This document shows positions 1 to 16,139 of a DNA stretch of 64,000 nt, piece after piece. Position 1 is the first letter of the stretch. Each line of letters begins with the position of its first letter. Source of the DNA: Bradyrhizobium erythrophlei (lineage in GTDB: Bacteria > Pseudomonadota > Alphaproteobacteria > Rhizobiales > Xanthobacteraceae). Both the position numbers and the translations under genes were made by a program. The notes under the pieces were generated by a model, which did no database searches, was not told the origin of the DNA, and saw only the letters and a program-made list of their open reading frames with translations. The stretch spans positions 7,225,001 to 7,289,000 of the forward strand of contig NZ_LT670818.1 in the NCBI RefSeq assembly GCF_900129505.1, read 5' to 3'.

Positions 1-1036
1 ATGCTCCCGCCCCCCAGATACTCGAAGCGAGAAGGCCGTCACGGAACAAGATGTATTGAAGGCCGTGCTTGAGCGCCGCGAGGCCTTTATTTTGGCCGAG
101 CAAGCTGATCGATTCCTTGAGTCTGCAGTGGATCGGAACCTCGACGTGGTTTTGGAAATTCTGGCCAACTTCGGGAGCGTCGTGGACCACAGCAACGCCT
201 TTTTCCTTAAGGAGTTTAGTCGGTCCAATACCGGATAGTTGCAGGATCTTCGGTGAAGCCAGAGCACCGGCGGCCAAAATCACCTCACGACCGGCGTGCA
301 CTTGGCTAATTTTGCCAGAGCTTGACCGATATTCAACGCCGACGACCTCGCTGTCCTCCGTGATAAGGCGGAGAACGCGGCAGTCGGTAAGCACCGTCAA
401 ATTCGACATATTCTTCCTTGGCGCAAGAAACGCCACGGCGGTGCTGCTCCGCCGACCCTTAAACGCCGTGCATTGAAAGAGGCCTACGCCCTCTTGCGTC
501 GCCCCGTTGAAGTCGTGGTTATAAGGCAGACCAATCTCTTGGCCGGCCTTGATGAAGGCGAGATCTGTTGGCAGAGCGTGCCACGCGTTGCCAACTTTGA
601 GCGGACCATTGGTGCCATGATAAGGTTCTGAGAACGACGCATTACTCTCCGACTTTTTGAACGCCGGGAGAACATCGTCCCAACCCCACCCGTCACAGCC
701 GAGCTCTCGCCATCCATCATAGTCCTCCGCAGAGCCGCGGAGGTAAATCATGGCATTGACGGAACTCCCCCCGCCCAGAACGTTTGCTTGAGGAACGAAG
801 AGTGGTCTGGAATTAGCATGGCTTTGCGGTGTTGTTTTATAGGACACAACCCGTTTGGTGCCGAATAAGCGAAAGAATGCCCCGGGCATGTGGATGAATG
901 GCGTGTTGTCCCCGCTGCCCGCCTCAAGCAGTAGGACCTGGAGGCCCGCCTCTGCCAGCCGGCCAGCAATGACCGACCCAGCCGATCCACCGCCAACAAC
1001 GACAAATTCGTACGACGATTTCGCTTCTCGGCTCAT
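1..1036 (-). CDS. GMC-family FAD-dependent oxidoreductase, 3' end outside the window
   Basis: The reverse strand from the ATG at 1034-1036 stays open to the window edge (345 codons seen; family members are usually 530-550 residues). The N-terminus has a Rossmann FAD motif (VVGGGSAGSVIAGRL, about residues 12-26), then LPxLEAG-like and HMPGAFF segments. A GMC signature (GGGSSVNAMIYLRG, about residues 86-99) and the second GMC signature around GALASPKILQLSGIG follow. GMC enzymes oxidise alcohols such as choline or benzyl alcohols using FAD. The catalytic His/Asn region lies beyond the window. It appears to be the last visible gene of the operon beginning with the DapA-like gene at 4767, about 240 bases after the flavin reductase gene. 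The substrate is unknown; alcohol dehydrogenase or choline dehydrogenase-like is the safest label. Confidence 0.9.
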   Translation of the reverse strand, partial: MSREAKSSYEFVVVGGGSAGSVIAGRLAEAGLQVLLLEAGSGDNTPFIHMPGAFFRLFGTKRVVSYKTTPQSHANSRPLFVPQANVLGGGSSVNAMIYLRGSAEDYDGWRELGCDGWGWDDVLPAFKKSESNASFSEPYHGTNGPLKVGNAWHALPTDLAFIKAGQEIGLPYNHDFNGATQEGVGLFQCTAFKGRRSSTAVAFLAPRKNMSNLTVLTDCRVLRLITEDSEVVGVEYRSSSGKISQVHAGREVILAAGALASPKILQLSGIGPTKLLKEKGVAVVHDAPEVGQNFQNHVEVPIHCRLKESISLLGQNKGLAALKHGLQYILFRDGLLASSIWGAGA

Positions 1037-1277
1037 GGGCAATCCGCGGCTCCTGAATTGGCTCCTCAGAGAAGCCGTGAAGATCGACTGTCTCTGCAAA
1101 CCATCCCCTGCCACGGACGTGCCCTGTACTTTAGGCAGCAGATCGTGACGTCTTGACCGGTCTAGGCTAGTGAGGATTTTTCGAAACTGACAGAGCCACT
1201 TCGGACAACGGGGCAGGACTGGTTGGGCAGGTATCGGGGCCATCGCTAGGAGCGCAATTGGCTCTTCCGGGAGACGA

Positions 1278-1751
1278 CTACAGATAGTGACCACGAAAGT
1301 GAACCAAAGGCGCGAGCGTGGGATTGTCCGACAATCCGACCACTCGTCCCAAGAGAATTTCCGTTTCAAATCTCGTAATTGCCTCGATCAGTTCGCAATC
1401 AACGGCAGCCACGGCGCGTTCGAGGATCGGTGCTCCCGTGACCAGCTTGGTCCAAGCGACTGTTTTAAACCGATCGGATCCGCTTATTTTTGTCTTTCCT
1501 CCAAAAATGTCAGCAAGTTCAATAAGATCATCGGGAACAAAGTTCAGCGCAAAATGCCGAGCATCTAGGATTGCTGGAAGGGCAGACGTAGGTTTACTCA
1601 CGCTCACCATCATAGTCGGTGGGTCCGCGCAAAGATGGGTAGCCGATAAGCCAAGAAAGCCCGCCGGTCCATGTTCGGAGCACGCGGTGACAATAGTGCT
1701 GCCTGACGCTCGCTGACCAACAGATTGCCAGAATGCCCTTTGATCAATCAT
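1278..1751 (-). CDS. Flavin reductase-like domain protein (RutF/HpaC type), short
   Basis: This is a 157-residue single-domain protein. It shows the FMN-binding split-barrel pattern of flavin:NAD(P)H reductases: FWQSVGQRASGSTIVTA near the N-terminus, a GFLGLSATHLCADPPTMMVSV strand pair, and HFALNFVPDDLIELADIFGGK in the middle. Such proteins supply reduced FMN to a partner monooxygenase. It is the second reductase of this type in the cluster (the other is at 6639-7250) and is shorter than typical members (160-190 residues). It lies 71 bases after the hydrolase gene in the same direction. Its monooxygenase partner could be the RutA-like enzyme at 7280-8362. The family is well supported; the physiological partner is inferred. 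Confidence 0.85.
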   Translation of the reverse strand: MIDQRAFWQSVGQRASGSTIVTACSEHGPAGFLGLSATHLCADPPTMMVSVSKPTSALPAILDARHFALNFVPDDLIELADIFGGKTKISGSDRFKTVAWTKLVTGAPILERAVAAVDCELIEAITRFETEILLGRVVGLSDNPTLAPLVHFRGHYL

Positions 1752-1822
1752 ATCGACCCATCCCTCTCGGGTGATATCGGAGTTTGGTAAGGTCAGACTG
1801 ACGCGGGCGTGAAGCGAACATT

Positions 1823-2617
1823 TCAGTGTCGCTGGCTTAAAAAGAACTTTAGCACCGTCTCATTGAATTCATCCGGTTCCGTCTGGGCATAGGCATGACC
1901 CCCGCGAGGCACGAGCATCAGTTTCGCGTGTGGAATGAGGTTGGCATATTCACGAGAAAAGTAACTTGGGGTCAGGACGTCATCCTCGCAGCAGACAACG
2001 AGAGTTGGAAGATTTAATCTGCCAAGCTCTTTGCGGCGATCGAACTTAAGTATGGCATCAAGCCGACTACCTTGAACTTTGGCATCGCCGAGTTGCTTCG
2101 ATGTTGAAAGCTCAAGTTCACGCAATTTTGCGTCGTTGCCGTTTATCCAGTAAGGCGGATAGAGCAGCAACGTGGTGTACTTCGCGTAGGCGAGCAAGCC
2201 GAGATGTGATAATAAGTGGAGGCGTAAATCGAAAATGCGTTGCCTGTAGGTATCGCCGCACGTTGTGCTTGCGTAGATCACGAGAGATGAGATGCGATCG
2301 GGATAGTCTAGAGCGGTAGCGACGCCGATCGCGCCGCCTGTCGAGTGGCCAAGATAAGCCGCGCGCTCGATGCCGGCGGCATCGAGGATAGCGATCAGAT
2401 CCGCCGACATCTCCTCAACAGACTCGACCTCGACGCGAGAGGAACGACCCGTTCCGCGCTGATCAAACGCGAGAACAGTGAAATGTTTTGCTAAGGCAGG
2501 GATATTGGCGTGCCAGAATGTTGCTGTTCCTCCTAGTCCCGCTGCGAGCACAAGCGGCGGTCCCGAACCGTCAACATACCAGTGCAGACGAGCACCGTTC
2601 CTCACTGTCTCTGGCAT
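1823..2617 (-). CDS. Alpha/beta hydrolase, RutD-like
   Basis: The 264-residue alpha/beta hydrolase begins at an ATG at 2615-2617. It has the oxyanion region PPLVLAAGLGGTATFW (about residues 19-34), FDQRGTGRS (about 51-59) and the nucleophile elbow GHSTGG (about residues 90-95, Ser nucleophile). An acidic residue sits in VVCCEDDVLTP and the catalytic His in RGGHAYAQTEPDEF near the C-terminus. The overall pattern resembles RutD, the aminoacrylate hydrolase of pyrimidine breakdown, and 3-oxoadipate enol-lactonases. It follows the VOC gene by 16 bases. With a RutA-like oxygenase and RutF-like reductases nearby, a ring-cleavage product hydrolase is plausible, but the substrate cannot be read from sequence. 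Confidence 0.9.
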   Translation of the reverse strand: MPETVRNGARLHWYVDGSGPPLVLAAGLGGTATFWHANIPALAKHFTVLAFDQRGTGRSSRVEVESVEEMSADLIAILDAAGIERAAYLGHSTGGAIGVATALDYPDRISSLVIYASTTCGDTYRQRIFDLRLHLLSHLGLLAYAKYTTLLLYPPYWINGNDAKLRELELSTSKQLGDAKVQGSRLDAILKFDRRKELGRLNLPTLVVCCEDDVLTPSYFSREYANLIPHAKLMLVPRGGHAYAQTEPDEFNETVLKFFLSQRH

Positions 2618-2633
2618 TATCGCTTACGCCTTC

Positions 2634-3119
2634 CTAGAAACTTTCATATGCGCTGTACCAGTTTGTATCCTTCGAGGGACCTGGGCCCGCCTCGTTTGAT
2701 CCGTCATATGTCAGTTCGATCAAGACCCCGTTTGGGTCACGGACGAACAGCTGCCACAGTTGAGTTCCGGGCGGGATGTTTTGCCGCCATGGCTTGCCGG
2801 CGGCCATCAGTTTTTGACGCATTTCTTGGAATCCCGCGCCGCCGATAGCGACGTGATCGATTGCTCCACCGCCGGTCGGAACGACACCATTGACATTCAG
2901 GGCAGATTCGCCGCCATACAGATGAATAAGGATTCCGCCTGCCGGCGGCGGAGTGGCGAGCCAAGCGCCCGGGAAATCGAAGGCGGGGCGATCGACCTCA
3001 GTCATGCCAAGCACGTCACGATAAAATTCCACAGTCGCCGGCACGTCTGCGGTTTTGAGCGAGATGTGCAAGATGTTCTGCAATGAAGGCGTCGTGGCCG
3101 TGGTGGATTCGAGTCTCAT
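2634..3119 (-). CDS. VOC family protein (glyoxalase/extradiol dioxygenase fold)
   Basis: The 161-residue protein starts at an ATG preceded by AAGGGGTGA. It has the two beta-alpha-beta-beta-beta modules of the vicinal oxygen chelate superfamily: ILHISLKTADVPATVEFYRDVLGM at the N-terminus, and IDHVAIGGAGFQEMRQKL followed by FVRDPNGVLIELTYDG in the second half. A metal site is suggested by H (HISL), H (IDHVA) and E (LIELTY). Members include glyoxalases, dioxygenases and isomerases. Its start codon overlaps the stop of the upstream isomerase-like gene by four bases (ATGA), so the two are probably translationally coupled. The last 15-20 residues (GPSKDTNWYSAYESF) look like a private tail. Confidence 0.9.
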   Translation of the reverse strand: MRLESTTATTPSLQNILHISLKTADVPATVEFYRDVLGMTEVDRPAFDFPGAWLATPPPAGGILIHLYGGESALNVNGVVPTGGGAIDHVAIGGAGFQEMRQKLMAAGKPWRQNIPPGTQLWQLFVRDPNGVLIELTYDGSNEAGPGPSKDTNWYSAYESF

Positions 3120-3763
3120 CGGGTCACCCCTTGTGATTCCGGGATTAGTCGCGAAAATCGAGCCTTGCCGGTCGCTTTCGCTAGGACATCTTCAAGAAAT
3201 TGAAGTCGATCCTGCCCCCAGTACATTTCCTTTTCAAAGAAATAGAACGGGGAGCCGAAGACGCCCCGGTCCTGCGCCTCCTGTGTATTGCGATCAAACT
3301 GTGCAATCGCATCTTGGCTCTTAGCGGCCTCTATCAGACGAGTTCCATCAAAGCCTAAGCCATCCACGATCTTGATCAGAGTGCGCTCGTCTGAAATGTC
3401 CTGCTCAAGTGCCCAGATCGCACGCAAAAAGGCGTTCGCCAAAAGGCCTGTCTCGTAGCCGAGCCCCTTGGATGCGATGAGAGCGCATGATGCAAGCTCA
3501 TCGCTAATCGGATAGTGCTTTGGGAAGAGCTTAACGGGTATCCCGAGATACTCTGACCACCGCTTCAGCTCGACCAGTCGATAATCCTGCCGTTGCTGGG
3601 ATCGCTTCTGCAAGAGGATCCCACCCGTTCCGGCATAAATTGCGGCAAGGCGCATGGGTTTGTGGTTGATGCGGACGCCGTAACTGCGTCCGAGTCGCTC
3701 CAGACGCACGCCTCCCATGTAGGCCCAATCGGACAACACGGAAAAAAAGTAATCGATCTCCAT
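3116..3763 (-). CDS. 2-hydroxychromene-2-carboxylate isomerase-like DsbA-fold protein
   Basis: The preferred start is the ATG at 3761-3763, preceded by a GAGAG Shine-Dalgarno-like run; this gives 215 residues. An upstream in-frame start at 3811 adds a poor leader. The thioredoxin/GST-kappa fold is recognisable: IDYFFSVLSDWAYMGG at the start (Ser in place of the thioredoxin Cys, as in HCCA isomerases), a helical insert with YPISDELASCALIASKGLG, and DRGVFGSPFYFFEKEMYWGQDRLQFLEDVL at the end, including the cis-Pro GSPFY motif. NahD, the known family member, isomerises hydroxychromene carboxylate in naphthalene breakdown and works just before NahE, a DapA-superfamily aldolase. Here the upstream neighbour is also of the DapA superfamily, so a NahD/NahE-like pair is an attractive but unproven reading. 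Confidence 0.88.
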   Translation of the reverse strand: MEIDYFFSVLSDWAYMGGVRLERLGRSYGVRINHKPMRLAAIYAGTGGILLQKRSQQRQDYRLVELKRWSEYLGIPVKLFPKHYPISDELASCALIASKGLGYETGLLANAFLRAIWALEQDISDERTLIKIVDGLGFDGTRLIEAAKSQDAIAQFDRNTQEAQDRGVFGSPFYFFEKEMYWGQDRLQFLEDVLAKATGKARFSRLIPESQGVTR

Positions 3764-3840
3764 CGCGGGTTCTCTCACTTTAGGTGCGGCGCTCTTAAAG
3801 ACGCACCGCACCGGCTCATCAGGCTTAAACGAAACAGCGG

Positions 3841-4767
3841 CTAGGCGAGAGCCGTCGCGGCCTCGGCTTTCATCAGCCCAGCGTTCTCGAGCAGCGCCTG
3901 CAGATATCTCCGATCAGCGGCATTGAGCATACGTAGCGGCCGCCGTGTCTGACCGACCGAGCGCCCCAGTAAATCGCAGGCTGTGTGCGCTACTCGAATA
4001 TAACCCTTGACGCCCATATATTCGCAAATGGGAAACATCGGTTGAAAGTATTCGCGCATGGCTTCGATGTTCTTTTCATCGTGGCCGATCCGGAAGAGTT
4101 CGACACACCGACGCGGCATGATATTGCAACTACCCGCGAACCAGCCATCCGCACCGGCCGCAATGGCTTCAGGTGTGCAGGCATCATTGCCGTTCAGAAC
4201 CGTGATCTGACGGTTTGTCAGCTGCCGGATAGCCGAGATGCGACTCATATCGCCCGAGCTCTCTTTGACAAAACCGACATTATCGATCTCAGCAATTCGA
4301 GCAATGAGGGCAGGTCTCATGTCGACCGCCGTGGTTCCGGGGTTATTATAGATTCCGACGGGGATCTTAACAGCACCTGCTATGGCTCGGTAATGTTCGT
4401 AAAGCTCATCTTCCGTAGCGCGCCAATAATTGATCGGAACAACAAGAACACCATCGGCGCCGTTATCTTCGGAGAATTTCGACAGTCGGATGGCTTCAGC
4501 CGTCGACATTGCGCCGGTGCCCGGCAAAACCGGCACACGCCCAGCCGTGTGCTTTACTGCCTTCAAAATAACCGCTCGGCGCTCGTCTTCGGTAAATGAG
4601 CCAATACCACCCGTGCTGCCGAAGACTGTGATTCCAGCGACACCGGATGCGATCTGGTGATCGATGACGCGCGCAAGGCAAGCGTCATCGATCTCTTCAC
4701 CATCGCTTTTTGTCGGGGTTACGACGAATGCAAACACTCCCTGAAACTTCTTCGCTGCGGCCTTCAT
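3841..4767 (-). CDS. Dihydrodipicolinate synthase-family lyase/aldolase
   Basis: The protein is 308 residues, the normal family length, with an ATG at 4765-4767 preceded by AGGAGAAAAA. The TIM-barrel features are FAFVVTPTKSDGEEID at the N-terminus, GSTGGIGSFTEDERR (about residues 50-64), YNNPGTTAVDM (containing the conserved Tyr, about residue 138) and VGFVKESSGD with the Schiff-base Lys (about residue 166). DapA-superfamily enzymes are pyruvate-Schiff-base aldolases, dehydratases or hydratase-aldolases. It is the first gene of the operon leading into the isomerase-like, VOC, hydrolase, flavin reductase and GMC genes, and is divergent from the MocR gene across 189 bases. It is unlikely to be the housekeeping lysine enzyme, given this setting. 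Confidence 0.92.
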   Translation of the reverse strand: MKAAAKKFQGVFAFVVTPTKSDGEEIDDACLARVIDHQIASGVAGITVFGSTGGIGSFTEDERRAVILKAVKHTAGRVPVLPGTGAMSTAEAIRLSKFSEDNGADGVLVVPINYWRATEDELYEHYRAIAGAVKIPVGIYNNPGTTAVDMRPALIARIAEIDNVGFVKESSGDMSRISAIRQLTNRQITVLNGNDACTPEAIAAGADGWFAGSCNIMPRRCVELFRIGHDEKNIEAMREYFQPMFPICEYMGVKGYIRVAHTACDLLGRSVGQTRRPLRMLNAADRRYLQALLENAGLMKAEAATALA

Positions 4768-4935
4768 TTTTTCTCCTCACTAACCAGCTGCTGAGCTTGT
4801 CTAAATGTCGCGATAAGCGGGCGAAAGTGCCGCTTCAAACAACGGGATAGGACCGCTTGGATGGATGTGGACGGCGTGCGATTTGCTGGGCCAGCTTAAT
4901 ATGCGGCTCAGCTCGGCGGCCGCGAGGCCAAACCC

Positions 4936-4952
4936 TTGGCACGATACTTGCA
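4936..4952 (+). promoter_or_regulatory. Sigma-54 (-24/-12) promoter consensus
   Basis: The 17 bases TTGGCACGATACTTGCA match the RpoN consensus YTGGCACGRNNNTTGCW at every defined position, with GG and GC at the required spacing. It points toward the MocR gene. Transcription would be expected to begin near 4963, just inside the annotated ATG at 4957. The regulator's real start might therefore be the ATG at 4993, or the site could be fortuitous. No enhancer-binding protein gene is visible nearby. Confidence 0.55.
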
Positions 4953-4956
4953 GTAA

Positions 4957-6528
4957 ATGTCTATCTTCCCTGACGGTTGCGTTGGTACAGAAATGCTTGA
5001 CGAAGATTCAAAGGAAACGGCGCTGAAAGGTCGCAGTAAGCGCGCGAGTCTGGCCGTTCTCAGTGACTTTGTACTCAATCCGCAGGCGCCTATTCCTTTG
5101 TGGCAACAGCTTTATCAGCAGCTGCGTGACGCGATGATATCGCGCCGACTACCGCCGGGCACTCAATTGCGGGCAACCCGTATTCTTGCACAGGAGCTCG
5201 GCTGCTCACGCAACACTGTTTTGGGTGCATTCGAACAGCTCATTGCTGAGGGCTATCTTGAAGGAAGAATTGGATCCGGCACATACGTGGCTAATATTTT
5301 GCCAGATGACGTAATGTGTGCCGACGACGCGTCGGCGGGTCAATCATCGCGGGCAGCGCGAAGGAGTCACTGTACTTTAGGACTGTCGCAGCGTGGCAGT
5401 CAGCTGGCGCAGATGATCCAAGATCGTGTGCCTTACAAGGCTTTTGCGCCTTGCCGACCGGACGTCTCACTGTTCCCGTTTGAGATTTGGGAGAAACTCG
5501 CGCGCGTTTGGGGGGCACCATCCCAGTCGCTTTTGACGCAGGCAGACCCATGTGGATATTGGCCTCTGCGCGAGACAATCTGCACGTATCTCCGCGCCGC
5601 GCGGATGATTGAATGTAAGCCTGAGCAAGTTATCATAACAGGAGGCGCGCAAAACGGTGTCGACATGGCCGCGCGCTTGCTCCTGGATCCTGGAGATGCC
5701 GTGTGGGTCGAGGATCCTGGGTATCCTGGCTTGCAGGCGGCGTTCTGTGCTGCCGATACCACTGTGGTGCCGGTTCCCGTGGACCAGGAGGGATTGTCGA
5801 TCGCTGAGGGAAAAGCGACCGGCCAGGTCCCTCGAATGATAGCAGTCGCTCCCTCACACCAGTACCCGCTTGGCGTGACCATGTCATTGCAACGCCGGTT
5901 GGAGCTGCTCTCGTTTGCAGCGGAGGTCGATAGTTGGATTATTGAGGACGATTACGATAACGAATTTCGGTATGAGGGCCGGCCTTTGGCGGCGCTCAGG
6001 AGCCTCGATAGTGATGACCGGGTCATCTATGTCGGGACGTTCTCAAAGGTTTTATTTCCCTCGTTACGGCTTGGATACTTAGTCGTGCCTTCGCGGATTT
6101 CCGAGCGTTTTGCGCAAGCGCGGGTCGGCATCGACGTGCAACCGTCGCTTCTGTCACAGCCTATTGTGGATTCCTTTATCCGCGAAGGTTATTTTTTCTC
6201 GCACGTGCGGCGTATGCGGACCATCTATCGCGATCGTCAAGCTGTGCTTGTGGATGCTGCCGAGAAGAATTTATCCGGCCTTCTTCACGTTCATCCTGAT
6301 GCCTCAGGCCTTCATCTCCTGGGACGCTTTACACCGGAAGTAAGTGCTCGTCTTGACGATGCGTCTGCCTCGCGCCGCGCCGCGGACTCTCGCATTTTTG
6401 CTCCGCCCTTATCGAGCTTTTATGCGGATCGTCGCGATCGCGGCGCGCTTGTTCTGGGTTACGCCGCAGTTGATGAAAGATCGATCATTTCTGCGACGCA
6501 AGCACTTTCGCGAGCACTACGCCTCTAG
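4957..6528 (+). CDS. MocR-type regulator: GntR winged helix fused to PLP aminotransferase domain
   Basis: This is a 523-residue two-domain protein. Residues about 35-115 form a GntR winged helix: PIPLWQQLYQQLRDAMISRR, then LAQELGCSRNTVLGAFEQLIAEGY. After a linker comes a fold-type-I aminotransferase domain with ITGGAQNGVDMAARLL, EDPGYPG, SHQYPLG, IIEDDYDNEFRY (binds the pyridine N) and the cofactor Lys in GTFSKVLFPSLRLGY (about residue 360). MocR proteins use PLP adducts of amino compounds as the signal. The gene is divergent from the DapA-like operon and convergent with the flavin reductase gene, so it probably controls one or both arms. The start is uncertain: the ATG at 4957 overlaps a sigma-54 promoter match and the ATG at 4993 is the alternative. 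A paralogue lies at 37664. Confidence 0.93.
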   Translation: MSIFPDGCVGTEMLDEDSKETALKGRSKRASLAVLSDFVLNPQAPIPLWQQLYQQLRDAMISRRLPPGTQLRATRILAQELGCSRNTVLGAFEQLIAEGYLEGRIGSGTYVANILPDDVMCADDASAGQSSRAARRSHCTLGLSQRGSQLAQMIQDRVPYKAFAPCRPDVSLFPFEIWEKLARVWGAPSQSLLTQADPCGYWPLRETICTYLRAARMIECKPEQVIITGGAQNGVDMAARLLLDPGDAVWVEDPGYPGLQAAFCAADTTVVPVPVDQEGLSIAEGKATGQVPRMIAVAPSHQYPLGVTMSLQRRLELLSFAAEVDSWIIEDDYDNEFRYEGRPLAALRSLDSDDRVIYVGTFSKVLFPSLRLGYLVVPSRISERFAQARVGIDVQPSLLSQPIVDSFIREGYFFSHVRRMRTIYRDRQAVLVDAAEKNLSGLLHVHPDASGLHLLGRFTPEVSARLDDASASRRAADSRIFAPPLSSFYADRRDRGALVLGYAAVDERSIISATQALSRALRL

Positions 6529-6638
6529 AGTGCGGTCGATTTATTGTTGATCTAGCTGTCCATCGGATCGTCCGGGAACGCGCCGGAGCGATGTGCAGCG
6601 ATCGAACTACCCTGCCAATCGAGGTCTTCGCACCGCGT

Positions 6639-7250
6639 TCAGACGGATGTTGGTTGAGACTTCGCGAGCACTTCGTGGAAATTGGTGACATACGTACGTC
6701 CGTGATAGAGCAACGGGACACCGCCGCCAAATCGAACGGCTTCGACGGCACCGAAGATAATATTGTGAGAGGCGAGCTCTTTCACCTCGATCGTTCGGCA
6801 ATCGAACGCAATCACGGCTGAGGTGAGAACCGGCGATCCACTTTTCAGGGTCATCCAGTCCCCAGTTGCAAATCGCTCGTCGAGGTGAAGGCCAGTGCGG
6901 CTCGCGAAAATGTCCGCAAGCTTCGTCTCGTTGGGGCCGATCGTGTTCACGCAAAAAGCGCCATTTTGCGAGAATAATGGCGCACTGTTACTTCGCTTAT
7001 TGACGCAAACCAGCAACATAGCTGGATCGTCGGAAACCGAACACACAGCAGTCGCTGTAAAGCCGGTCTTACCGGCTGGTCCGGCCGACGTAACAATGTG
7101 TACGGCGGCTGTCAGGTGGCTCATCGATTCACGAAATAGCGCGGGTTCAATGTACGACAATATCCCGCTCTTTCGATCATCCGGCATCGTAGCGTCCGTG
7201 TTTGCTCGCGCGACCCATGCCAGACCTAGATCTGTTTGCTTGATCGGCAT
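6639..7250 (-). CDS. Flavin reductase (RutF/HpaC family)
   Basis: Starting at the ATG at 7248-7250 it is 203 residues; an alternative ATG lies at 7187 and neither has a convincing ribosome site. The domain runs from FRESMSHLTAAVHIVTSAGPAG through FTATAVCSVSDDPAMLLVCVNKRS, GAFCVNTIGPNETKLADIFASR, and the C-terminal PLLYHGRTYVTNFHEV segment. This is the classic flavin reductase order, with the Tyr/His-rich end seen in HpaC and RutF. It lies 29 bases after the RutA-like monooxygenase gene. The pair is the standard two-component FMN monooxygenase arrangement, in which this protein makes reduced FMN for the oxygenase. Confidence 0.93.
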   Translation of the reverse strand: MPIKQTDLGLAWVARANTDATMPDDRKSGILSYIEPALFRESMSHLTAAVHIVTSAGPAGKTGFTATAVCSVSDDPAMLLVCVNKRSNSAPLFSQNGAFCVNTIGPNETKLADIFASRTGLHLDERFATGDWMTLKSGSPVLTSAVIAFDCRTIEVKELASHNIIFGAVEAVRFGGGVPLLYHGRTYVTNFHEVLAKSQPTSV

Positions 7251-7279
7251 CGCGAAGTACGAGTTGCGCGCGGCACAAG

Positions 7280-8362
7280 TCAGGCACTCTTTTTGGTGAG
7301 CCGGACGTCGTTGCCGAGTAGAGCAGCATCGACCAGCGGAATAACGTTTTCTCCGAACTTTTTGACGTCGCGGCCCCAATTCGGAAAGACCATTGCCGCG
7401 CCGCCGAGACCTTGGGCGTGCAGTTCACAGAACCGATCGGCGACAGTCTTATAGGAGCCCACGATCGGCAGAACTCCCATGAAGGCGTCGGCTCTATGGC
7501 GCTGAGCGGACGATCCAGTTGCGTCGGCCTGTCCGAGGCGACGCCACGTCTCGACTGCTTCGACATCGACAGTCTCGTTGATATGGTCGAGCACAGCTTC
7601 GGCCTTGGCATCAGTTTCCTCTGCAATTACAACGAGCAGTGCGTAACTGCGGACGCTCCTGCCGACTTGGCGCGCGAAGGTTTGCGTTCGTGTGCTGAGA
7701 TCGAGCGTTGTAAGTTCGGCATTGGGCATGATGAAATTGTAGTCGGCCCATAGAGCCGCTGCTTTCATGCCGGCGTCTGACTGCCCGGCCCCACACAAGG
7801 GAATCGATCGCTTAGGCAGGGGCTGACAAATGCAATCGTCCAGATTGAAATACTTGCCTTTATGGGTCAAACGGCCCTTCTCCCATAGCCCGCGCAGCAC
7901 TTCCACGTATTCGACTGCGTATTCATACCGGTAGCGGTAGTAATCGTCGCCTGGCCATAAACCCATGGGGGCATATTCCATCTTGTTCCAGCCGGCAACG
8001 ATATTCAGGATCAGCCGCCCGTTGCTGATGCCATCGATGGTTGCGGCCATGCGTGCGCAAACGCCGGGGTGCAGAAGGGGCAACGAGACGGAGGCGATGA
8101 GTTCGATCCTCTTGGTCGAGGCCGCAATGCCGCTCATCAATGTCAACGATTCCGTGGCGTAGTCCCACAGTTCCGTCTTGCCTCCGTAACCACGCCATTT
8201 AGTTTGGGCCAAAGCGAATGAATACCCGGTGTTTTCGGCATCTACACAAGCATCGCGGTTAAGCTCGAAAGTGGGCATGTATTGGTACTCGGGCGCCGTG
8301 GACGCGATCATCCCATTATTTGTAACTGGCAAGAACATTCCAAAATCGAATTTATCAACCAC
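7280..8362 (-). CDS. LLM-class flavin-dependent monooxygenase, RutA-like
   Basis: I place the start at the GTG at 8360-8362 because GGAAGGAG lies 8 bases upstream; a TTG at 8431 would add 23 unlikely residues. The 360-residue luciferase-like TIM barrel carries FGMFLPVTNNGM, YMPTFELNRDACVDAENTGYSFAL, GGKTELWDYATESLTLM, ARMAATIDGISNGRLILNIVAGWN, GLWPGDDYYRYRYEYAVEYVEVLRGLW and CGAGQSDAGM. These segments align closely with what I recall of RutA, which opens the uracil ring using FMN and oxygen. No RutB, RutC or RutE gene is visible, so another N-heterocycle or related substrate is possible. It probably works with the reductase just downstream. Confidence 0.9.
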   Translation of the reverse strand: MVDKFDFGMFLPVTNNGMIASTAPEYQYMPTFELNRDACVDAENTGYSFALAQTKWRGYGGKTELWDYATESLTLMSGIAASTKRIELIASVSLPLLHPGVCARMAATIDGISNGRLILNIVAGWNKMEYAPMGLWPGDDYYRYRYEYAVEYVEVLRGLWEKGRLTHKGKYFNLDDCICQPLPKRSIPLCGAGQSDAGMKAAALWADYNFIMPNAELTTLDLSTRTQTFARQVGRSVRSYALLVVIAEETDAKAEAVLDHINETVDVEAVETWRRLGQADATGSSAQRHRADAFMGVLPIVGSYKTVADRFCELHAQGLGGAAMVFPNWGRDVKKFGENVIPLVDAALLGNDVRLTKKSA

Positions 8363-8463
8363 GTCTCGAACTCCTTCCGTCCAGCATCCTCCGTTTAGTC
8401 CGGAGGAAAGCAGTTCTTTCGATAACGCCAATCTAGATTTCTGGCTTTGTAGAACGAAAGGTC

Positions 8464-8496
8464 CATTCCGGCGAGTTCAGTGGTGCCACCGGAATG
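8464..8496. promoter_or_regulatory. Inverted repeat upstream of the RutA-like gene
   Basis: CATTCCGG at 8464-8471 is repeated as its exact reverse complement CCGGAATG at 8489-8496, with 17 bases between. It lies about 100 bases upstream of the monooxygenase GTG. The long spacer fits two half-sites of a dimeric regulator better than a transcription terminator, but a weak hairpin cannot be excluded. Confidence 0.4.
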
Positions 8497-8626
8497 ATCA
8501 TGTGAAGAGAACGCCTGAATAGAAGGCAAAGCAGCTAATCGCTTAGGCAGTTGCGCCTGTGGCCGAAGGCGCTACCCGCGAAGTCAAACGCGTGAGCGGT
8601 GTTAACCTAATGCGCGTGCGGGGCAG

Positions 8627-9700
8627 TCAGCTCGATGTTAGCGTTTCTTGCTCACTCCGGGAGGGACGCATGGACAATCGCGAGAACGGACAGGGTATTT
8701 CAGAGCCGTTCGTTAGTCCGCTAGGACGAAGCACGAGAACCAGCGCGAGCACAATGCCGAGCCCAATTTCTTGCGAATATCTCGGTAACCCAAGTATGTG
8801 GCTTTGGATCGTAACCCCAGCCTCGAACTTTCGCAGTATTTCAACAATTAAGGTAACGAATAGAGTGCCGATAACTGCTCCGCTCAAGCTCCCGGAGCCA
8901 CCGATGATCAGCATGGCCAGCGTAAGGAACGTAAGGTTGAGATAAAACACGTCGACAGAGATGACACCCAAGAAGTGCGCATATAAACCGCCCCCAAGGC
9001 CGACAAGAAATGCACTCAGTACGAAAGCACTCAGCCGGACGTGGACGACGTTTATAGCGACGGATTTTGCCGCGATCTCGTCGTCACGCGATGCCCGCAC
9101 CATAAGGCCCACCCGCGATTGCTGAAAGAGCGCGGCGCAAATGATTGCAAATGCGACATACGCGAAGAACACCCACGAATTTGCGACGGTTGGAATGCCA
9201 ATAATGGAGCTCGCACCGGCAGTCACCGAATCCCAGTTTGAATAGAGGCTGTTAACAGCGGCTAGAAATGCAAACGTAGCGATTGAGGCCGCGATGCCCG
9301 TGAGACGGATGATTGCTGCGCCAAATAGAGCCGCTATGACCGTGGCCAATAGGCCGCCACCTAAGACCGCAACGATAAAAGGATATTGGGTCTCGTTGAG
9401 AAATGCGGGAAGCCCCGTCAACATCAACTGTTTCCACGCGGGTGGTCCCGCGGCCCATCCTGCCGCATAGGCGCCAATGCACATGAAAGCGACTTGGCCG
9501 AATGAAAGGATGCCCGTATTTCCGACGAAAGTATAAACTCCGATGACGACTACCATACGAATAAGCATTTCGTTGATAGTCAATGTGACGCTCTCAGCGC
9601 CGCTAAACTGACCGAGCGCAACAACCACAGCGACGATGGCGATCAGTACGATGGGGCTCCAAATCGTTTCAAGCCGCCGTCGATGCGGTTCCATTGTCAT
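8627..9700 (-). CDS. Branched-chain amino acid-type ABC transporter permease (LivM family)
   Basis: The 357-residue polytopic membrane protein starts at an ATG preceded by AAAGGAGCACC. It shows LivM-type features: YTFVGNTGILSFGQVAFMCIGAYAAGW in the first third, then a series of hydrophobic helices. The conserved loop GLMVRASRDDEIAAKSVAINVVHVRLSAFVLSAFLVGLGGGLYAHFLG and LAMLIIGGSGSLSGAVIGTLFVT follow. With LivH it forms the channel of an importer for amino acids, urea or aromatic acids. It lies 9 bases after the LivH-like gene. The C-terminal 25 residues after LRPSGL are unusually long. Confidence 0.93.
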   Translation of the reverse strand: MTMEPHRRRLETIWSPIVLIAIVAVVVALGQFSGAESVTLTINEMLIRMVVVIGVYTFVGNTGILSFGQVAFMCIGAYAAGWAAGPPAWKQLMLTGLPAFLNETQYPFIVAVLGGGLLATVIAALFGAAIIRLTGIAASIATFAFLAAVNSLYSNWDSVTAGASSIIGIPTVANSWVFFAYVAFAIICAALFQQSRVGLMVRASRDDEIAAKSVAINVVHVRLSAFVLSAFLVGLGGGLYAHFLGVISVDVFYLNLTFLTLAMLIIGGSGSLSGAVIGTLFVTLIVEILRKFEAGVTIQSHILGLPRYSQEIGLGIVLALVLVLRPSGLTNGSEIPCPFSRLSMRPSRSEQETLTSS

Positions 9701-9709
9701 GGTGCTCCT

Positions 9710-10636
9710 TTAGACCCGTTCAGTGAACGCTCTTGTGGGAAACAGGCCAGTTGGTCGGACGATTAGGATCAGAATGACCAGCGTAAAAACAAACGCATCC
9801 CGAAAACTTCGCATCTCCCCTGGCAGATACGCCTGTAGCAAGGATGCGGCGAGGCCTACAGCCATGCCGCCCACAGCAGCGCCGACCAAGCTGCCCATTC
9901 CGCCGATCACCGTGCCAATAAAGGCGAACAGCATGAGTGGAACACCCATCTGAAACGTAAGGGTGCCGGTCTGTGCTACGAACAAAAGTGAGACGGCGAC
10001 AGCAAGTACGCCAGAGACGGCGAACGCAACGCTGATTACGTAGTTCGAGCGCACACCAAGATATTGCGCCATCCGAAAATCTTCTGCCGCGGCGCGCATT
10101 TGCACACCTAAGGGGGTTAAGCGCAAAATAGCCGTCAAAAGCAGCATCAAGATCATTGTCGCGCCGATCGTTACCAGCTGTAGCTTACCTACATGTAGAG
10201 CGCCGATATCGACCTGTTGGATGAGACTTGGCCAGAGATTGACGGACTTCTCGCGCGCTCCGTAAACTATCAAAAGCACGTTCTGAATCACGTAGCTGGC
10301 CGCAAAAGACGCGATCATCAAGGTTGGCGGCGAGGAACTTTTTAGATAGCGAAATAGAAGGAAATAGCAAAGGACAGCGAGTGCGATCACAATAGTACTC
10401 GTAGCGACGAGCATGAAGGGCAGCGGCCAACGCCCGATGAACATTTGCGCGGTGACATCGGCACTTGCTTGGAGTGGTGGAACGATGAGCGCATAAGCGC
10501 CGACCGATATAAAATCTCCATGCGCGAAGTTGATCAGCCGCAAGACCCCAAACAGAAGGCCTATGCCAAGAGCGGCAAGTGCATAAAGGCTGCCAAGACT
10601 AATGGCGTCGATGACATTTTGTAGGAACCCAATCAT
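9710..10636 (-). CDS. Branched-chain amino acid-type ABC transporter permease (LivH family)
   Basis: The 308-residue permease begins at the ATG at 10634-10636, which overlaps the LivF-like stop codon by four bases. The LivH pattern is clear: FLQNVIDAISLGSLYALAALGIGLLFGVLRLINFAHGD at the N-terminus, the EAA-like loop VQMRAAAEDFRMAQYLGVR, and LLFAFIGTVIGGMGSLVGAAVGGMAVGL near the end. About eight membrane segments can be seen. It forms the transmembrane pore with the LivM-like protein. Confidence 0.94.
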   Translation of the reverse strand: MIGFLQNVIDAISLGSLYALAALGIGLLFGVLRLINFAHGDFISVGAYALIVPPLQASADVTAQMFIGRWPLPFMLVATSTIVIALAVLCYFLLFRYLKSSSPPTLMIASFAASYVIQNVLLIVYGAREKSVNLWPSLIQQVDIGALHVGKLQLVTIGATMILMLLLTAILRLTPLGVQMRAAAEDFRMAQYLGVRSNYVISVAFAVSGVLAVAVSLLFVAQTGTLTFQMGVPLMLFAFIGTVIGGMGSLVGAAVGGMAVGLAASLLQAYLPGEMRSFRDAFVFTLVILILIVRPTGLFPTRAFTERV

Positions 10637-11385
10637 TGTTGTGCGCCCTCTTGCAGAGTCTCTTGGGGCTCATCGAAGCCGAAGTATGCGCTTTTTAAGG
10701 ATCGCCCGTCGGCTATGTCCGCAGGTCGGATGCATAACCGAATCACGCCGTTGCGCAGAACGTAAACGCGATCTGCTACTCTCATCACGCGTTCCGATGA
10801 TTGCTCATTGATAAGGAGCGTAACATTGTCGCGCCGGCGCATATCAAGCAAGATATCATAAACACGACCGATGATTTGCGGTGCGAGCCCCAACGATGGC
10901 TCATCGACGAGTATGATCCGGGGCCTAGTCATGAGCGCGCGGCAAATGACAAGCATTTGCTGCTCGCCGCCGGAAAGTTTTCCAGCTGGCTGCTTCAGCC
11001 GCTCTCGCAGCCTAGGGAAGAGCTCCAGCATGCGTTCGCGATCGGCATTTATGTTGGTTCGATCGCGCCGTTGGTAAGAACCGATGCGCAAGTTTTCATC
11101 GACCGACAACGTTGAAAATACATGCCGGCCCTCAGGAACGAACGAGAGGCCAAGGCGTGATATCGCTTCGGGTGCCTTTCCCATGAGCGCTACACCCGCA
11201 AAACGGATTGCTCCTAGGCGGGGCCGAACGCCGCCGGCTATAGCCTTGAGAATCGTCGATTTACCCGCGCCGTTTGGTCCGCATATGCAAACGATCTCGC
11301 CGTCCTCGACGTTAAGCGACACACCACGCAGCGCGCTAAGGCGGCCATAATTGACGTGGACATCATCAACCTCGATCAATGGCAT
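10633..11385 (-). CDS. ABC transporter ATP-binding protein (LivF family)
   Basis: The start at the ATG at 11383-11385 gives 250 residues; a GTG at 11397 is the alternative. The nucleotide-binding domain is complete: Walker A CGPNGAGKST, Q-loop FVPEGRHVFSTLSV, signature KLSGGEQQML, Walker B IILVDEPSLGLAP and switch NEQSSERVM. It is one of two ATPases in this importer and pairs with the LivG-like subunit. Its C-terminus overlaps the permease gene start, so the genes are tightly coupled. Confidence 0.94.
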   Translation of the reverse strand: MPLIEVDDVHVNYGRLSALRGVSLNVEDGEIVCICGPNGAGKSTILKAIAGGVRPRLGAIRFAGVALMGKAPEAISRLGLSFVPEGRHVFSTLSVDENLRIGSYQRRDRTNINADRERMLELFPRLRERLKQPAGKLSGGEQQMLVICRALMTRPRIILVDEPSLGLAPQIIGRVYDILLDMRRRDNVTLLINEQSSERVMRVADRVYVLRNGVIRLCIRPADIADGRSLKSAYFGFDEPQETLQEGAQQ

Positions 11386-11402
11386 AGCGCGTCCCACACA
11401 TT

Positions 11403-12146
11403 CTAAACGTAGTGTCCGAGATACGCTTCGATGACAGCCTCGTTCTGCTGAATTTCTTTCGGAGTCCCTTCAGCGATTGTTCGCCCACCATCAAGAACAT
11501 GGATGCGATGTGACACGCCCATGATGATACGCATGTTATGCTCGATCAAAAGCGCGCCGCAATTGAACGATTTGGGAATCCGTGAGATCAGTTGCATCAA
11601 TTCGTCGCACTCATGATCGGACATTCCCGCAGCGGGCTCATCCAGCAGGATAAATGCGGGTCGGGTCACAAGTGCGCGCGCAATACCTACTCGTCTTTCA
11701 TCCGTGTAAGCGAGGGTACCGGCGATCGCATCGGCCTTGTCGTCAATCGAGAGCCAAGCCATGGTCTCCATCGCGACGGAAGCTGCTTGCTTCCGAGCCA
11801 TTCCCATCGCAACGGCGGCGACCTCAACGTTCTGAAGCACGGTCATTCCTCGGAAGAGGCGACCGGCTTGGAAGGTTCGGCTAATCCCTGTTTTACGGAT
11901 GTGGTCAGGAGCTGACCCCACGACGTCAACGCCGCCGATAAGGATACTGCCTCCCGTGGGGATCTGGAACCCAGTGAGGCAGTTGACGAGCGTTGTTTTA
12001 CCGGCGCCGTTAGGCCCGATCAGCCCCAGGACCTCGTTGCGCTGCAGGCTGAGGCTGACATTCGAGACAGCCACCAAACCTCCAAAGCGCACCTCAAGGC
12101 CTGCTACGGACAACTCCCACAGATTATCCTTTGTCCTGCTTAGCAA
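11403..12146 (-). CDS. ABC transporter ATP-binding protein (LivG family)
   Basis: The open frame starts at a TTG at 12144-12146 (247 residues). No ATG gives a complete N-terminus, so the start is tentative. It has Walker A GLIGPNGAGKTT, the Q-loop region GISRTFQAGRLFRGMTV, Walker B FILLDEPAAGMS and the His switch LLIEHNMRIIMGVSHRIHVLDGG. The signature motif is unusual: where LivG proteins have LAYGQQRR this one has LAYTDERR, so the conserved Gly is Thr. The gene lies 17 bases upstream of the LivF-like gene. It should hydrolyse ATP together with LivF. Confidence 0.92.
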   Translation of the reverse strand: MLSRTKDNLWELSVAGLEVRFGGLVAVSNVSLSLQRNEVLGLIGPNGAGKTTLVNCLTGFQIPTGGSILIGGVDVVGSAPDHIRKTGISRTFQAGRLFRGMTVLQNVEVAAVAMGMARKQAASVAMETMAWLSIDDKADAIAGTLAYTDERRVGIARALVTRPAFILLDEPAAGMSDHECDELMQLISRIPKSFNCGALLIEHNMRIIMGVSHRIHVLDGGRTIAEGTPKEIQQNEAVIEAYLGHYV

Positions 12147-12219
12147 GATCGTTCACCCGCCCTGCTCATCGCGAACCTACCCGAGTCCGACGAGCGTGAT
12201 GCATAACGCCCTTTGTTGG

Positions 12220-13428
12220 TCATTTCTTCAAGCGATAGAGGACGTCGCTTGGGACGGCTTCGTCGATCCGCCAATCTTTGAGCACCTTCCCTTTGCCATC
12301 ATTGATTTCGACGATGAAATAGTTGGCCCGATCCTGCTCATGCAATTTTGCCGAAAAGGAGCGTGGACCAAGGATTGTTGGTTCGTCGCTAAGACTGTTC
12401 ATGACTGCGACAACTCTAGCGGCATCGAGTGTTCCCGCTTTCTCAACCGCCTTCTGCCACAGTTGGAGAAAAGCATAGATTGGAAAGGCATATTGTGTGA
12501 CGGGCGCTTCATTGAACTTTACCTTGTAGCGTTCGATGAGGGATTTCACCTCCGGACGCGGATCGTCGCCATAGACTGATGCCTGAACTGTCTCATAGAA
12601 ATTACTCAGGTTTGGCACCGAGTTGAGCCAGTATGTCCCGTCCATGCCGCTACCGTTCAGGATCGGCACATGAATGCCAGCGGCACGCATTTGACGGATG
12701 GCCGCCGGTCCGCCTGGTGTGATGGTACATAGCATCACCGCATCCAGTTTTCCGGCACTTATCGCGCTACGTATATGCGTGACTTGTGAGGCGATCGATG
12801 CGTCGGCGTTTTTGAACGTATCACGGTCGACGATTGTGCCGCCCAGCTTTGAGAACATCCAGTCAAAGCCAGCGCAAGTGGATTTATTATATTCAATGAA
12901 ATCATCGAGCAACACAAAGGCGTTGCGGACATTCTTCTCCTTGTACGCCCATTCCGCGATCGTAGCCCCCTGAACTTGGGCTGCGGCCGATGCAGAGAAA
13001 GAATATGGACCAACGCCGACGATGCCCGCTTTCGGATCCTCGGCGCATAGAAATACTGAGATCTTCCCAGCTTTTTGCGCTTGAAGAGCAGCGGGCGCAC
13101 CGAAGTCGTAATCGCAGGTGACAAAGACAAGGTCGGCACCCTCGCCGATGACCTCCTGCCCTGCCTTGGCACCTTCAGCGCGATCGCCTTTGGTATCGGC
13201 GAAAAGAGGCACGATTTTTCGACCAAGAATTCCGCCTTTAGCGTTGACGTCATCCATGAACACTTGTGCCATCTTGGTGCCGTCGCCATCGTAAGCGAGC
13301 CAAAATCCTGTCATCGCGACCGAAAAGCCAAATTTAATGGGAGGCTGCTCCTCGGCAATTGCATGAGACGTGGTCACGTAGGTAAGCAGGCCTAACCCGA
13401 GTATTCCAGCCCTCAGCCATCTCAGCAT
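12220..13428 (-). CDS. ABC transporter substrate-binding protein (type 1 periplasmic, Liv/urea type)
   Basis: The best start is the ATG at 13426-13428, preceded by GGAGACTAAA; upstream in-frame starts exist at 13440, 13449 and 13452. The 402-residue protein begins with a signal peptide (LRWLRAGILGLGLLTYV, then SHAIA). It continues with the peripla_BP_6 pattern: IKFGFSVAMTGFWLAYDGDGTKMAQVFMDDVNAKGGILGRKI, then DLVFVTCDYDFGAPAAL and DAVMLCTITPGGPAAIRQM. It binds the imported compound in the periplasm and begins the five-gene transporter operon. The ligand cannot be predicted; amino acids, amides and aromatic acids are all possible. Confidence 0.92.
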   Translation of the reverse strand: MLRWLRAGILGLGLLTYVTTSHAIAEEQPPIKFGFSVAMTGFWLAYDGDGTKMAQVFMDDVNAKGGILGRKIVPLFADTKGDRAEGAKAGQEVIGEGADLVFVTCDYDFGAPAALQAQKAGKISVFLCAEDPKAGIVGVGPYSFSASAAAQVQGATIAEWAYKEKNVRNAFVLLDDFIEYNKSTCAGFDWMFSKLGGTIVDRDTFKNADASIASQVTHIRSAISAGKLDAVMLCTITPGGPAAIRQMRAAGIHVPILNGSGMDGTYWLNSVPNLSNFYETVQASVYGDDPRPEVKSLIERYKVKFNEAPVTQYAFPIYAFLQLWQKAVEKAGTLDAARVVAVMNSLSDEPTILGPRSFSAKLHEQDRANYFIVEINDGKGKVLKDWRIDEAVPSDVLYRLKK

Positions 13429-13739
13429 TTTAGTCTCCATGCCATTCATCAACGCGAGAGTTATTCGCTTGTTCTAAGGCTTCACGCGCGAAATCTTTAG
13501 ACCCACTAAGCGAAAATGATTGGAGCCGATTAGCGTCATTAATAATGAACGGCCTGCTTCTGAAGGTGATTGCGTGGAGCGCAGGCAGATTTTGGACATT
13601 TTCTGCGCACTTGCGCATGACATGGTGCGACTCGTCGGAAAGATGGCCAGTGCGGCCTCTTTTGCGGCGACCGCGCCTGCGTGGCTTGTGCTGAGGTGCG
13701 CGAATGTCTCGTCAAAGATCGCGATTCTGGGTGCTCGGT
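13429..13739. other. Intergenic region with no recognisable gene
   Basis: This 310-base stretch separates the transporter operon from the IS91 remnant. Its first part must hold the promoter of the substrate-binding protein gene. No conserved promoter, terminator or coding sequence stands out. Open frames here look like chance or mobile-element debris. Confidence 0.4.
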
Positions 13740-14207
13740 TTATCTCGTGCCGCTGTGCAAGGCCGAGTGGGTCGTCTACGCAAAGCGGCCGTTCGGCGGG
13801 CCCGAGGCGGTGCTGGCCTATCTGTCGCGCTATACCCACCGCGTCGTCATCGCCAACAGCCGCCTGATCGCCTACGACCAGCAGCGTGTCACCTTCAAGT
13901 GGAAGGACTACCGCATCAAAGGGCGCGATCGATACAGAAGCATGAGGCTTGCCACCGACGAGTTCATCCGCCGTCTCCTCATCCACGTGTTGCCAAACGG
14001 CTTGCACCGCATCCGCCACTACGGCCTGTCGCTAAAGCCGCTTGCGCCGGCAACATCGCACGCGCCCGCGAGTTGCTCGCCGCCACAAAACCTCAGAGTA
14101 AATCCACCAGTTCCGTGGTCGATCCCGGCGATCCTCCTTGTCCATGCTGCGGCGGTTGCATGATTATCATCGAGGTCTTCGAGCGCGGTCGTACGCCCCG
14201 TCACTAA
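13740..14207 (+). pseudogene. IS91-family transposase, C-terminal fragment, frameshifted
   Basis: The segment encodes the diagnostic C-terminal half of IS91/IS801-type rolling-circle transposases: EWVVYAKRPFGGPEAVLAYLSRYTHRVVIAN, VTFKWKDYRIKGRDR and FIRRLLIHVLPNGLHRIRHYGL. After about 14030 the reading continues in another frame with ARARELLAATKPQSK and a CPCCGG Cys cluster, then CMIIIEVFERG, ending near 14207. The zinc-binding N-terminus is absent here, but a matching one lies on the opposite strand at 15750-15988. The copy is dead. The pieces sit in inverted relative orientation around 14.2-15.7 kb. Confidence 0.8.
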
Positions 14208-14806: not shown

Positions 14807-15481
14807 CTACTTCAAGTATCGAAAATCCTCGACGAAGCTCGGCGCCCTTATTCCTTCTCTTAACTTCGGATCCGGGACAGGCTTGAGTTGCTCCAACCGC
14901 AGACCAATTGAGCCTGCCCACAGGTCAGTTTTAAGATCATCCGGCTCCTCATCCGGCAAACCGTCACTCACCTTAGCCGAGACTTCATTTAGCTTCATTC
15001 GGATAACCTTAGTCGCTTTCCACTCCTGGTCCGTTGGCTTACGCGCATAGTCCCACAAGCCCGGCGCCAATCGATCAACGAAGACGGGTAATGCCTCGCG
15101 CTTCACCTCTTCGCTACAAAGCTCGGCATTTCCGAACGCTATGACGGATCGAAAGTTAACGTTGTGGTTAAATGCAGCGCGCGAGAAAACGATACCGTCG
15201 AGATGCGTAACTGTGAAGCATACCGGGATTCCGCTTTGCTGCGCCTTCAGCATGCGACTGGCGGATGACCCATGCCAATACAAGTAATCATCAATGCGCC
15301 AATGGTTCGTGGGGGTGACATAGGGCGCTCCATCGATCACATAGCCAACCTGACAAACTATGCCGACGTCGATGATCGCATTGATAGTATCCCGGTCGTA
15401 TTTAGCCAACCAATGATACCGCTTTAGGCGCGTCCGTTCACTCGCTGGCTCTACATGAAGCGTATCTTTGTTGATCGTCAT
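14807..15481 (-). CDS. Pyridoxamine 5'-phosphate oxidase-family (FMN-binding split barrel) protein, copy 1
   Basis: I start at the ATG at 15479-15481 (224 residues), which has GGAG nine bases upstream and matches the start of its paralogue. A further ATG lies at 15517. The PPOX-like barrel shows RTRLKRYHWLAKYDRDTINAIID, GYVIDGAPYVTPTNHWRIDDYLYWHGSSASRML, CFTVTHLDGIVFSRAAFNHNVNFRSV and LAPGLWDYARKP. Such proteins bind FMN, F420 or heme; several are encoded next to MocR regulators. It is closely similar along its whole length to the protein at 39285-39962. It is flanked by IS91 fragments, so it may have been separated from an original operon. Confidence 0.88.
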   Translation of the reverse strand: MTINKDTLHVEPASERTRLKRYHWLAKYDRDTINAIIDVGIVCQVGYVIDGAPYVTPTNHWRIDDYLYWHGSSASRMLKAQQSGIPVCFTVTHLDGIVFSRAAFNHNVNFRSVIAFGNAELCSEEVKREALPVFVDRLAPGLWDYARKPTDQEWKATKVIRMKLNEVSAKVSDGLPDEEPDDLKTDLWAGSIGLRLEQLKPVPDPKLREGIRAPSFVEDFRYLK

Positions 15482-15749
15482 CGCGCTAAACTCCGGGGAA
15501 GTACATCGTTCGAGCATTCAGTTGAGTATTGGTTTGACGGGGGATTCCCGGCGCTTGGCGTCTTTTTTTGAAAGTTGGCAGGTCCATTATTGGTCCAGGT
15601 CGAGGGATCAACAGCCGCGCCACACCTCGAAGTATGCCTAATCCAAGCCAAGCTCCAAATCGTGTCGTATCGCCGAGCACTTATAGAGGTTACGACGTAA
15701 ACTTGCGCGAGCCATTGCGAAAAACTGGATGGAGCCAATTATCTTTTTT

Positions 15750-15988
15750 TGCGCCGCCGCGCCCTGGCACTTCGGGCAGTGCCGGTTGCGGCAGCTGTTG
15801 TAGGCGATCGTGGTGTGGGCGCAATCCTCGCAGCGCGCGACGTGTCCGCCCAGCGCCGCCGTGCGGCAGTTCTCGATGGCGCTCATCACCTTGAGTTGGA
15901 GCAGGCTCACGTGACCGCGGTTGGCATGACGCCACGCGGCCCCGTGGTCGCGGAAGACGTCGGCGACCTCCAGAGCTGGACGGGCCAT
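15750..15988 (-). pseudogene. IS91-family transposase, N-terminal zinc-binding fragment
   Basis: Reading from the ATG at 15988, the protein has LEVADVFRDHGAAWR, LKVMSAIENCRTAALGGHVARCEDC and AYNSCRNRHCPKCQ, the CxxC...CxxxCPxCQ zinc-binding head of IS91 transposases. Homology stops at about 15750, after CQGAAA. The continuation is unrelated. It is directly downstream of the integrase fragment at 15998, the usual order in this IS group. Confidence 0.8.
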
Positions 15989-15997
15989 GTGGGCCCG

Positions 15998-16129
15998 TTA
16001 GGCTGGCGGCTCGTTCTTCTTCGGCGCTGGTGGCGTGAGCCTGTCCAGCGGGCTCATGACCTCACGGATGATGTTGGTGGCCACTTGAGTGTAACGAGCC
16101 GTGGTGTCGAGCTTGGAATGCCCGAGGGG
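15998..16129 (-). pseudogene. IS91-associated tyrosine recombinase, C-terminal scrap
   Basis: The frame ends with PLGHSKLDTTARYTQVA followed by REVMSPLDRL. This is the C-terminal active-site helix of a tyrosine recombinase, with the LGHxxLxTTxxYT motif and the catalytic Tyr. Only about 43 residues remain. In complete elements such a recombinase gene precedes the IS91 transposase, as it does here. The rest was replaced at the junction near 16130. Confidence 0.75.
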
Positions 16130-16139
16130 GAACTGGCCA

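Follow-up and report, generated by a model that had tools for sequence, protein, structure and literature searches.

What is broken down by a gene cluster that sets a RutA-like monooxygenase and a complete Liv-type importer beside a DapA-superfamily lyase, and does it encode one pathway or two? The question is raised by the left end of a 64,000-nucleotide stretch of the Bradyrhizobium erythrophlei genome (G000:C1:7225001-7289000, within a 9.18-Mb single-contig genome), the whole of which is called the window here. The tentative answer, somewhat short of an even chance, is a horizontally acquired island of two units that together serve a single cyclic-amide (lactam) pathway. The sequence basis consists of the gene families, pocket residues, gene order, rarity and the neighbourhoods of the importer's relatives; from these we infer the class of substrate, the order of the steps and the joining of the two units.

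Organization of the cluster

The original prediction had named a GMC oxidoreductase, two flavin reductases, RutD-like, VOC, HCCA-isomerase-like, DapA-superfamily, MocR and RutA-like proteins and a full Liv importer. All are present where it had placed them, with profile matches.

1..1039 (cut at the window start; full gene L009:14432-16039), minus: GMC oxidoreductase (PF00732 and PF05199)
1278..1751, minus: flavin reductase 1 (PF01613, 102.3 bits)
1823..2617, minus: RutD-like alpha/beta hydrolase with a GHSTGG motif (TIGR03611, 205.8 bits, cut-off 238.5; alignment with 3v48)
2634..3119, minus: VOC/glyoxalase-fold protein (PF00903, 35.5 bits)
3116..3811, minus: HCCA-isomerase-like (DSBA fold) protein (PF01323, 112.5 bits; 2imd, expect value (E) 1.3e-22)
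3841..4767, minus: DapA-superfamily (DHDPS-family) lyase (PF00701, 211.1 bits)
4768..4956, no strand: divergent intergenic region with a weak 13-nucleotide direct repeat (77%, spacing 23) that may have arisen by chance
4957..6528, plus: MocR-type regulator (PF00392 and PF00155; NF052281, 473.8 bits, cut-off 650)
6639..7250, minus: flavin reductase 2, RutF/HpaC-like (PF01613, 117.8 bits; TIGR03615, 168 bits, cut-off 254.75)
7280..8362 (reading frame open to 8431), minus: RutA-like flavin mononucleotide (FMN) monooxygenase (LLM; TIGR03612, 328.7 bits, cut-off 498.3)
8627..9700, minus: LivM-type permease (PF02653)
9710..10636, minus: LivH-type permease (PF02653)
10633..11397, minus: LivF-type ATPase (top NCBIfam model LivF, below cut-off)
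11403..12146, minus: LivG-type ATPase (top NCBIfam model LivG, below cut-off; PF00005 and PF12399)
12220..13452, minus: Liv-type substrate-binding protein (Peripla_BP_6; PF13458, 158.3 bits), of a clade linked to lactam enzymes by its relatives' neighbours
13681..14163, plus: truncated Y2-type transposase at the right edge (PF04986, 120.5 bits, profile positions 83-175 of 183)

The gene spacing fits two minus-strand units, with gaps that depend on start codons of our own choice. In unit A the genes from the binding protein to LivM lie at most 73 bases apart; the likely start of the RutA-like gene follows after 264 bases, and a gap of 29 bases separates this gene from flavin reductase 2. In unit B no gap between the dapA-like gene and flavin reductase 1 exceeds 71 bases, and the likely GMC start comes 238 bases later. 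The plus-strand MocR gene sits between the units, convergent to unit A and divergent from the dapA-like unit.

The RutA-like monooxygenase

Flavin-N5 amide cleavage is typified by RutA, which is also the nearest solved relative of the RutA-like protein. The score of this protein lies under the curated equivalog cut-off of TIGR03612, a model on which two genuine RutA proteins reach 694.9 and 725.8 bits, and a tree places it in a clade separate from RutA with a support of 1.0. It is an enzyme other than RutA. Four of the five named residues of the RutA dioxygen/N5 pocket are nevertheless retained: L65, T105, N134, V136 and F224 correspond to L, S, N, V and F, and the change of Thr105 to Ser is a substitution that RutA tolerates. 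The gene order differs from that of the E. coli rutABCDEFG operon. As had been noted at the outset, RutB, RutC and RutE have no match among the proteins scanned, which included small open reading frames only in part.

A different RutA-like clade is found in three genomes of the same genus (L036, L037 and L038), with an HpcH/HpaI aldolase gene at most 2 kb away in all three; L036 has in addition a nitroreductase and a helix-turn-helix (HTH)-cupin regulator near the RutA-like gene. These loci are apparently another RutA-like setting that is undescribed. The same clade includes a protein from another genus of the family (L131), with no HpcH/HpaI aldolase among the genes listed.

The importer and its relatives

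The closest paralog of the importer within the genome is 55% identical in the binding protein and 46-51% in the Liv parts. Beside this paralog lie genes for LamB/YcsF (PxpA), a biotin carboxylase of the AccC type and a pair of proteins with carboxyltransferase domains that belong to the 5-oxoprolinase/urea-amidolyase family. In a survey of 117 genomes of the genus (E 1e-100), 12 matched besides the own genome, every one with PxpA and AccC alongside. A class-wide survey of 385 genomes (E 1e-120) gave eight matches besides the own genome. In the wider stretches read, the binding-protein relative of L163 has HyuA and HyuB nearby, and those of three loci from a single genus (L166-L168) have HyuB; L168 adds HyuA, another HyuB copy and an AccC-like gene. 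These four loci represent two genera other than that of the window. None of the eight loci has a PxpA match. As a background, the 78 Peripla_BP_6 and 2 Hydantoinase_B matches of the own genome form no pair within 10 kb, in a survey that covered neither HyuA nor further PxpA copies. The PxpA- and Hyu-type neighbours thus suggest that the importer carries a lactam or some other cyclic amide. The Liv clade that occurs beside HyuA/HyuB (L163, L166-L168) or beside PxpA-AccC-PxpB-PxpC-like genes (in the window's genus) is a candidate family for the import of lactams, hydantoins or oxoproline-like compounds.

The enzymes of unit B

The lyase retains Tyr140 and Lys168, and the position of the DHDPS active-site Arg, after the YNVPS motif, is Thr145; the roles of these three residues are presumed. 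Because this Arg is replaced, biosynthetic DapA activity is unlikely. The lyase scores 196.9 bits with TIGR00674, under the cut-off of 206.15. Its top solved match is 3na8, and none of the best 60 of the 147 solved sequences that match it is named NahE. In the HCCA-isomerase-like protein the aligned serine of 2imd, which we take to be catalytic, and the VFGxP and WGxDRL segments are all retained. The proposed resemblance to the Nah enzymes is weak, consisting in the isomerase fold with its aligned serine and, for the lyase, in membership of the superfamily.

In the RutD-like hydrolase, GHSTGG aligns with GHALGA of 3v48, with Ser in place of Ala, and the protein therefore looks like an ordinary serine hydrolase. 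As the hydrolase and the RutA-like protein both lie under their curated cut-offs, the Rut-like labels first given to them hold at the level of the family but not of the named enzyme. No close solved relative of the VOC protein was found.

Association of the two units

The longest contig listed measures 39,690 bases (source lgn) for relatives of proteins from both units: P0002 (85% identical) and P0122 (84%), the best relatives of the lyase and of the RutA-like protein, and P0243 (81%), the second-best relative of the binding protein. The three lists hold the best 120 of 343, 377 and 1370 matches, with the longest contig of each cluster, so that the identity of the contig is read from the equal figure. 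Both units are thus probably together on one contig in a second organism. Among the matches listed, 39,690 is the only figure of at least 5 kb common to the lists; five shorter figures are each common to two lists, probably by coincidence.

In addition, five lyase loci were found at 52-54% identity. In four of these, L044 being the exception, a MocR gene is divergent from the lyase gene. Three of the four (L045-L047) have a Liv importer behind the lyase; the fourth, L048, is a 4-kb contig. The MocR-lyase-importer arrangement therefore recurs, with a Liv system that differs from that of the window (25-39% identity).

A proposed pathway and its rivals

In the proposed pathway, unit A would import a small cyclic amide or N-heterocycle. 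Flavin reductase 2 would provide reduced FMN (FMNH2) to the RutA-like enzyme, whose flavin-N5-peroxide would attack the amide carbonyl and cleave the C-N bond oxygenolytically without adenosine triphosphate (ATP). Unit B, divergent from MocR, would act on the opened chain: the HCCA-isomerase-like protein may catalyse a cis-trans step that depends on glutathione, and the DapA-like lyase, acting through a Schiff base, may cleave (or deaminate) the chain; breakdown would be completed by the serine hydrolase together with the VOC protein and the GMC oxidase. The conserved pocket and the kinship of the importer point to import and ring opening, the gene families to the chain breakdown, and the putative shared contig to the union. 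The original prediction of import, opening and cutting by one system fares accordingly: uptake of an N-heterocycle and ring opening through an FMN oxygenase agree with the evidence, with the importer relatives as an independent hint, and the union of the units hangs on that one contig. A single pathway across both units is plausible. It is doubtful, and on balance rather unlikely, that the island holds an undescribed pathway in the full form, in which N5-peroxide oxygenolysis of a lactam or heteroaromatic cyclic amide replaces the ATP- or biotin-driven oxoprolinase/hydantoinase step encoded next to related importers, and the open chain is then degraded by an isomerase that uses glutathione and by a DapA-type lyase.

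Several observations weigh against a single lactam pathway. The PxpC-like neighbour of the paralogous importer is under its cut-off (226.7 of 500). Four of the eight class-level matches (L164, a 7.4-kb contig, L165, L169 and L170) have no such genes by tblastn and by eye. The 12 matches within the genus are orthologs and count as one arrangement, so that the PxpA/HyuB linkage amounts to about three arrangements rather than 16; the Hyu background rate applies to the own genome only. The enzyme-linked relatives are only 47-56% identical to the window binding protein, and the neighbourhood survey excludes closer relatives at 67-73% (e.g. in Reyranella). The lyase profile retrieved 79 loci with a lyase at most 54% identical, and none of them has a match for the RutA-like, HCCA-isomerase-like, VOC or GMC protein. 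Apart from 39,690, the matches listed share no contig figure of at least 5 kb, and no operator motif common to both units exceeded shuffles.

Part of this also favours a rival reading in which the island holds two unrelated neighbours, one for an N-heterocycle (importer, RutA-like enzyme and flavin reductase 2) and one for an aromatic or keto-acid compound under MocR, with adjacency as a product of island assembly. This is nearly as probable as the single pathway. The units are separate and differ in orientation relative to MocR, RutA-like genes do not accompany the 79 lyase relatives, no second contig figure of at least 5 kb is common to the lists, no operator motif common to both units emerged, and more catabolic genes and insertion-sequence (IS) pieces adjoin on the left. 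The units are, however, apparently still together in the second organism at 81-85% identity.

Two further rivals concern unit A. It is improbable that it is an altered pyrimidine-utilization system that handles uracil, thymine or their close analogues, as the closeness of the solved RutA and the lack of another RutA above the cut-off in the own genome might suggest: the enzyme falls outside the RutA clade as well as under the cut-off, the RutB, RutC and RutE matches expected from the E. coli operon were not seen in the scan, a Liv importer stands in place of RutG, and the RutD-like hydrolase has Ser where 3v48 has Ala. There is similarly little chance that the RutA-like enzyme performs other flavin-N5 chemistry, such as C-S or C-halogen cleavage. 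Relatives of this type, DszA, HcbA1 and SfnG, have the same fold and proposed flavin-N5 chemistry (PMC8283759), and in the model comparison SfnG is level with RutA by Z. The SfnG model, however, gives 167.6 bits against 328.7 for the RutA model, and the importer relatives adjoin lactam-opening genes. A separate clade in which the pocket is retained, and whose importer hints at the substrate, would extend flavin-N5 amide cleavage beyond pyrimidines, and the candidates narrow to lactams, hydantoins, oxoproline-like compounds and pyridones.

Rarity and borders of the island

The cluster is apparently a rare, horizontally acquired catabolic island. GC (guanine plus cytosine) content is 0.551 over window positions 1-13500, 0.587 for the remainder of the window and 0.618 for a single 19-kb stretch elsewhere in the same genome; it is likewise low (0.54-0.59) across the 15 kb that adjoin the window on the left. 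Transposase remnants flank the cluster, the truncated Y2-type gene on the right (13681-14163) and IS630 pieces on the left. At E 1e-60 the lyase has a match in 25 of 265 genomes of the genus, and at E 1e-80 the RutA-like protein in eight, the own genome included in both counts; the top non-self identities are 48% and 46%. At E 1e-85 the lyase matches one of 397 genomes in a sample of the order, its own. The co-occurrence expected across the genus did not appear: at the thresholds used, 264 other species yielded no ortholog of the lyase or of the RutA-like enzyme. Elsewhere, co-occurrence is suggested by the contig read from the equal 39,690 figure and not by the 79 lyase-relative loci.

On the left, the GMC gene extends 569 bases beyond the window start and is followed by a class-I glutamine-amidotransferase-like gene (L009) and then the IS630 pieces. 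The region L009:4688-11332 carries genes for an HpaB-type monooxygenase, another Liv system and a third flavin reductase; genes of the UbiX type and for a TctC-type receptor lie farther left. On the right, a Pyridox_ox_2 family gene (14807-15517; PF12900, 140.6 bits) lies between the transposase remnant and an AbiEii-type nucleotidyltransferase gene (15749-16657; PF08843, 91 bits) near the island's edge; it is not clearly an island member. Weak Diels-Alderase/CrtC-domain matches occur at 17431-18684 (PF22903, 36 bits; PF24137, 33 bits).

Comparison with known systems

The cluster resembles the Rut pathway in its two-component FMN monooxygenase and reductase (RutA/RutF), in the fold and most of the dioxygen pocket, and in having a RutD-like hydrolase. 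It differs in its separate, below-cut-off RutA-like clade, its Liv importer, the serine of its hydrolase and the lack of RutB, RutC and RutE matches among the genes scanned. It shares with NahD/NahE of naphthalene breakdown adjacent genes for an HCCA-isomerase fold with the aligned serine and a DHDPS-superfamily lyase; unlike that system, it has no ring-hydroxylating dioxygenase among the genes scanned, and its lyase has 3na8 as the best solved match. The XRE/cupin-linked RutA-like clade of L036-L038 likewise has a RutA-like gene near a lyase gene, but both the clade and the lyase fold, there HpcH/HpaI, are different. The Liv importers beside PxpA/B/C, AccC or HyuA/HyuB apparently belong to the same binding-protein and Liv clade as that of the window. 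There, a flavin monooxygenase takes the place that an oxoprolinase or hydantoinase has beside those importers.
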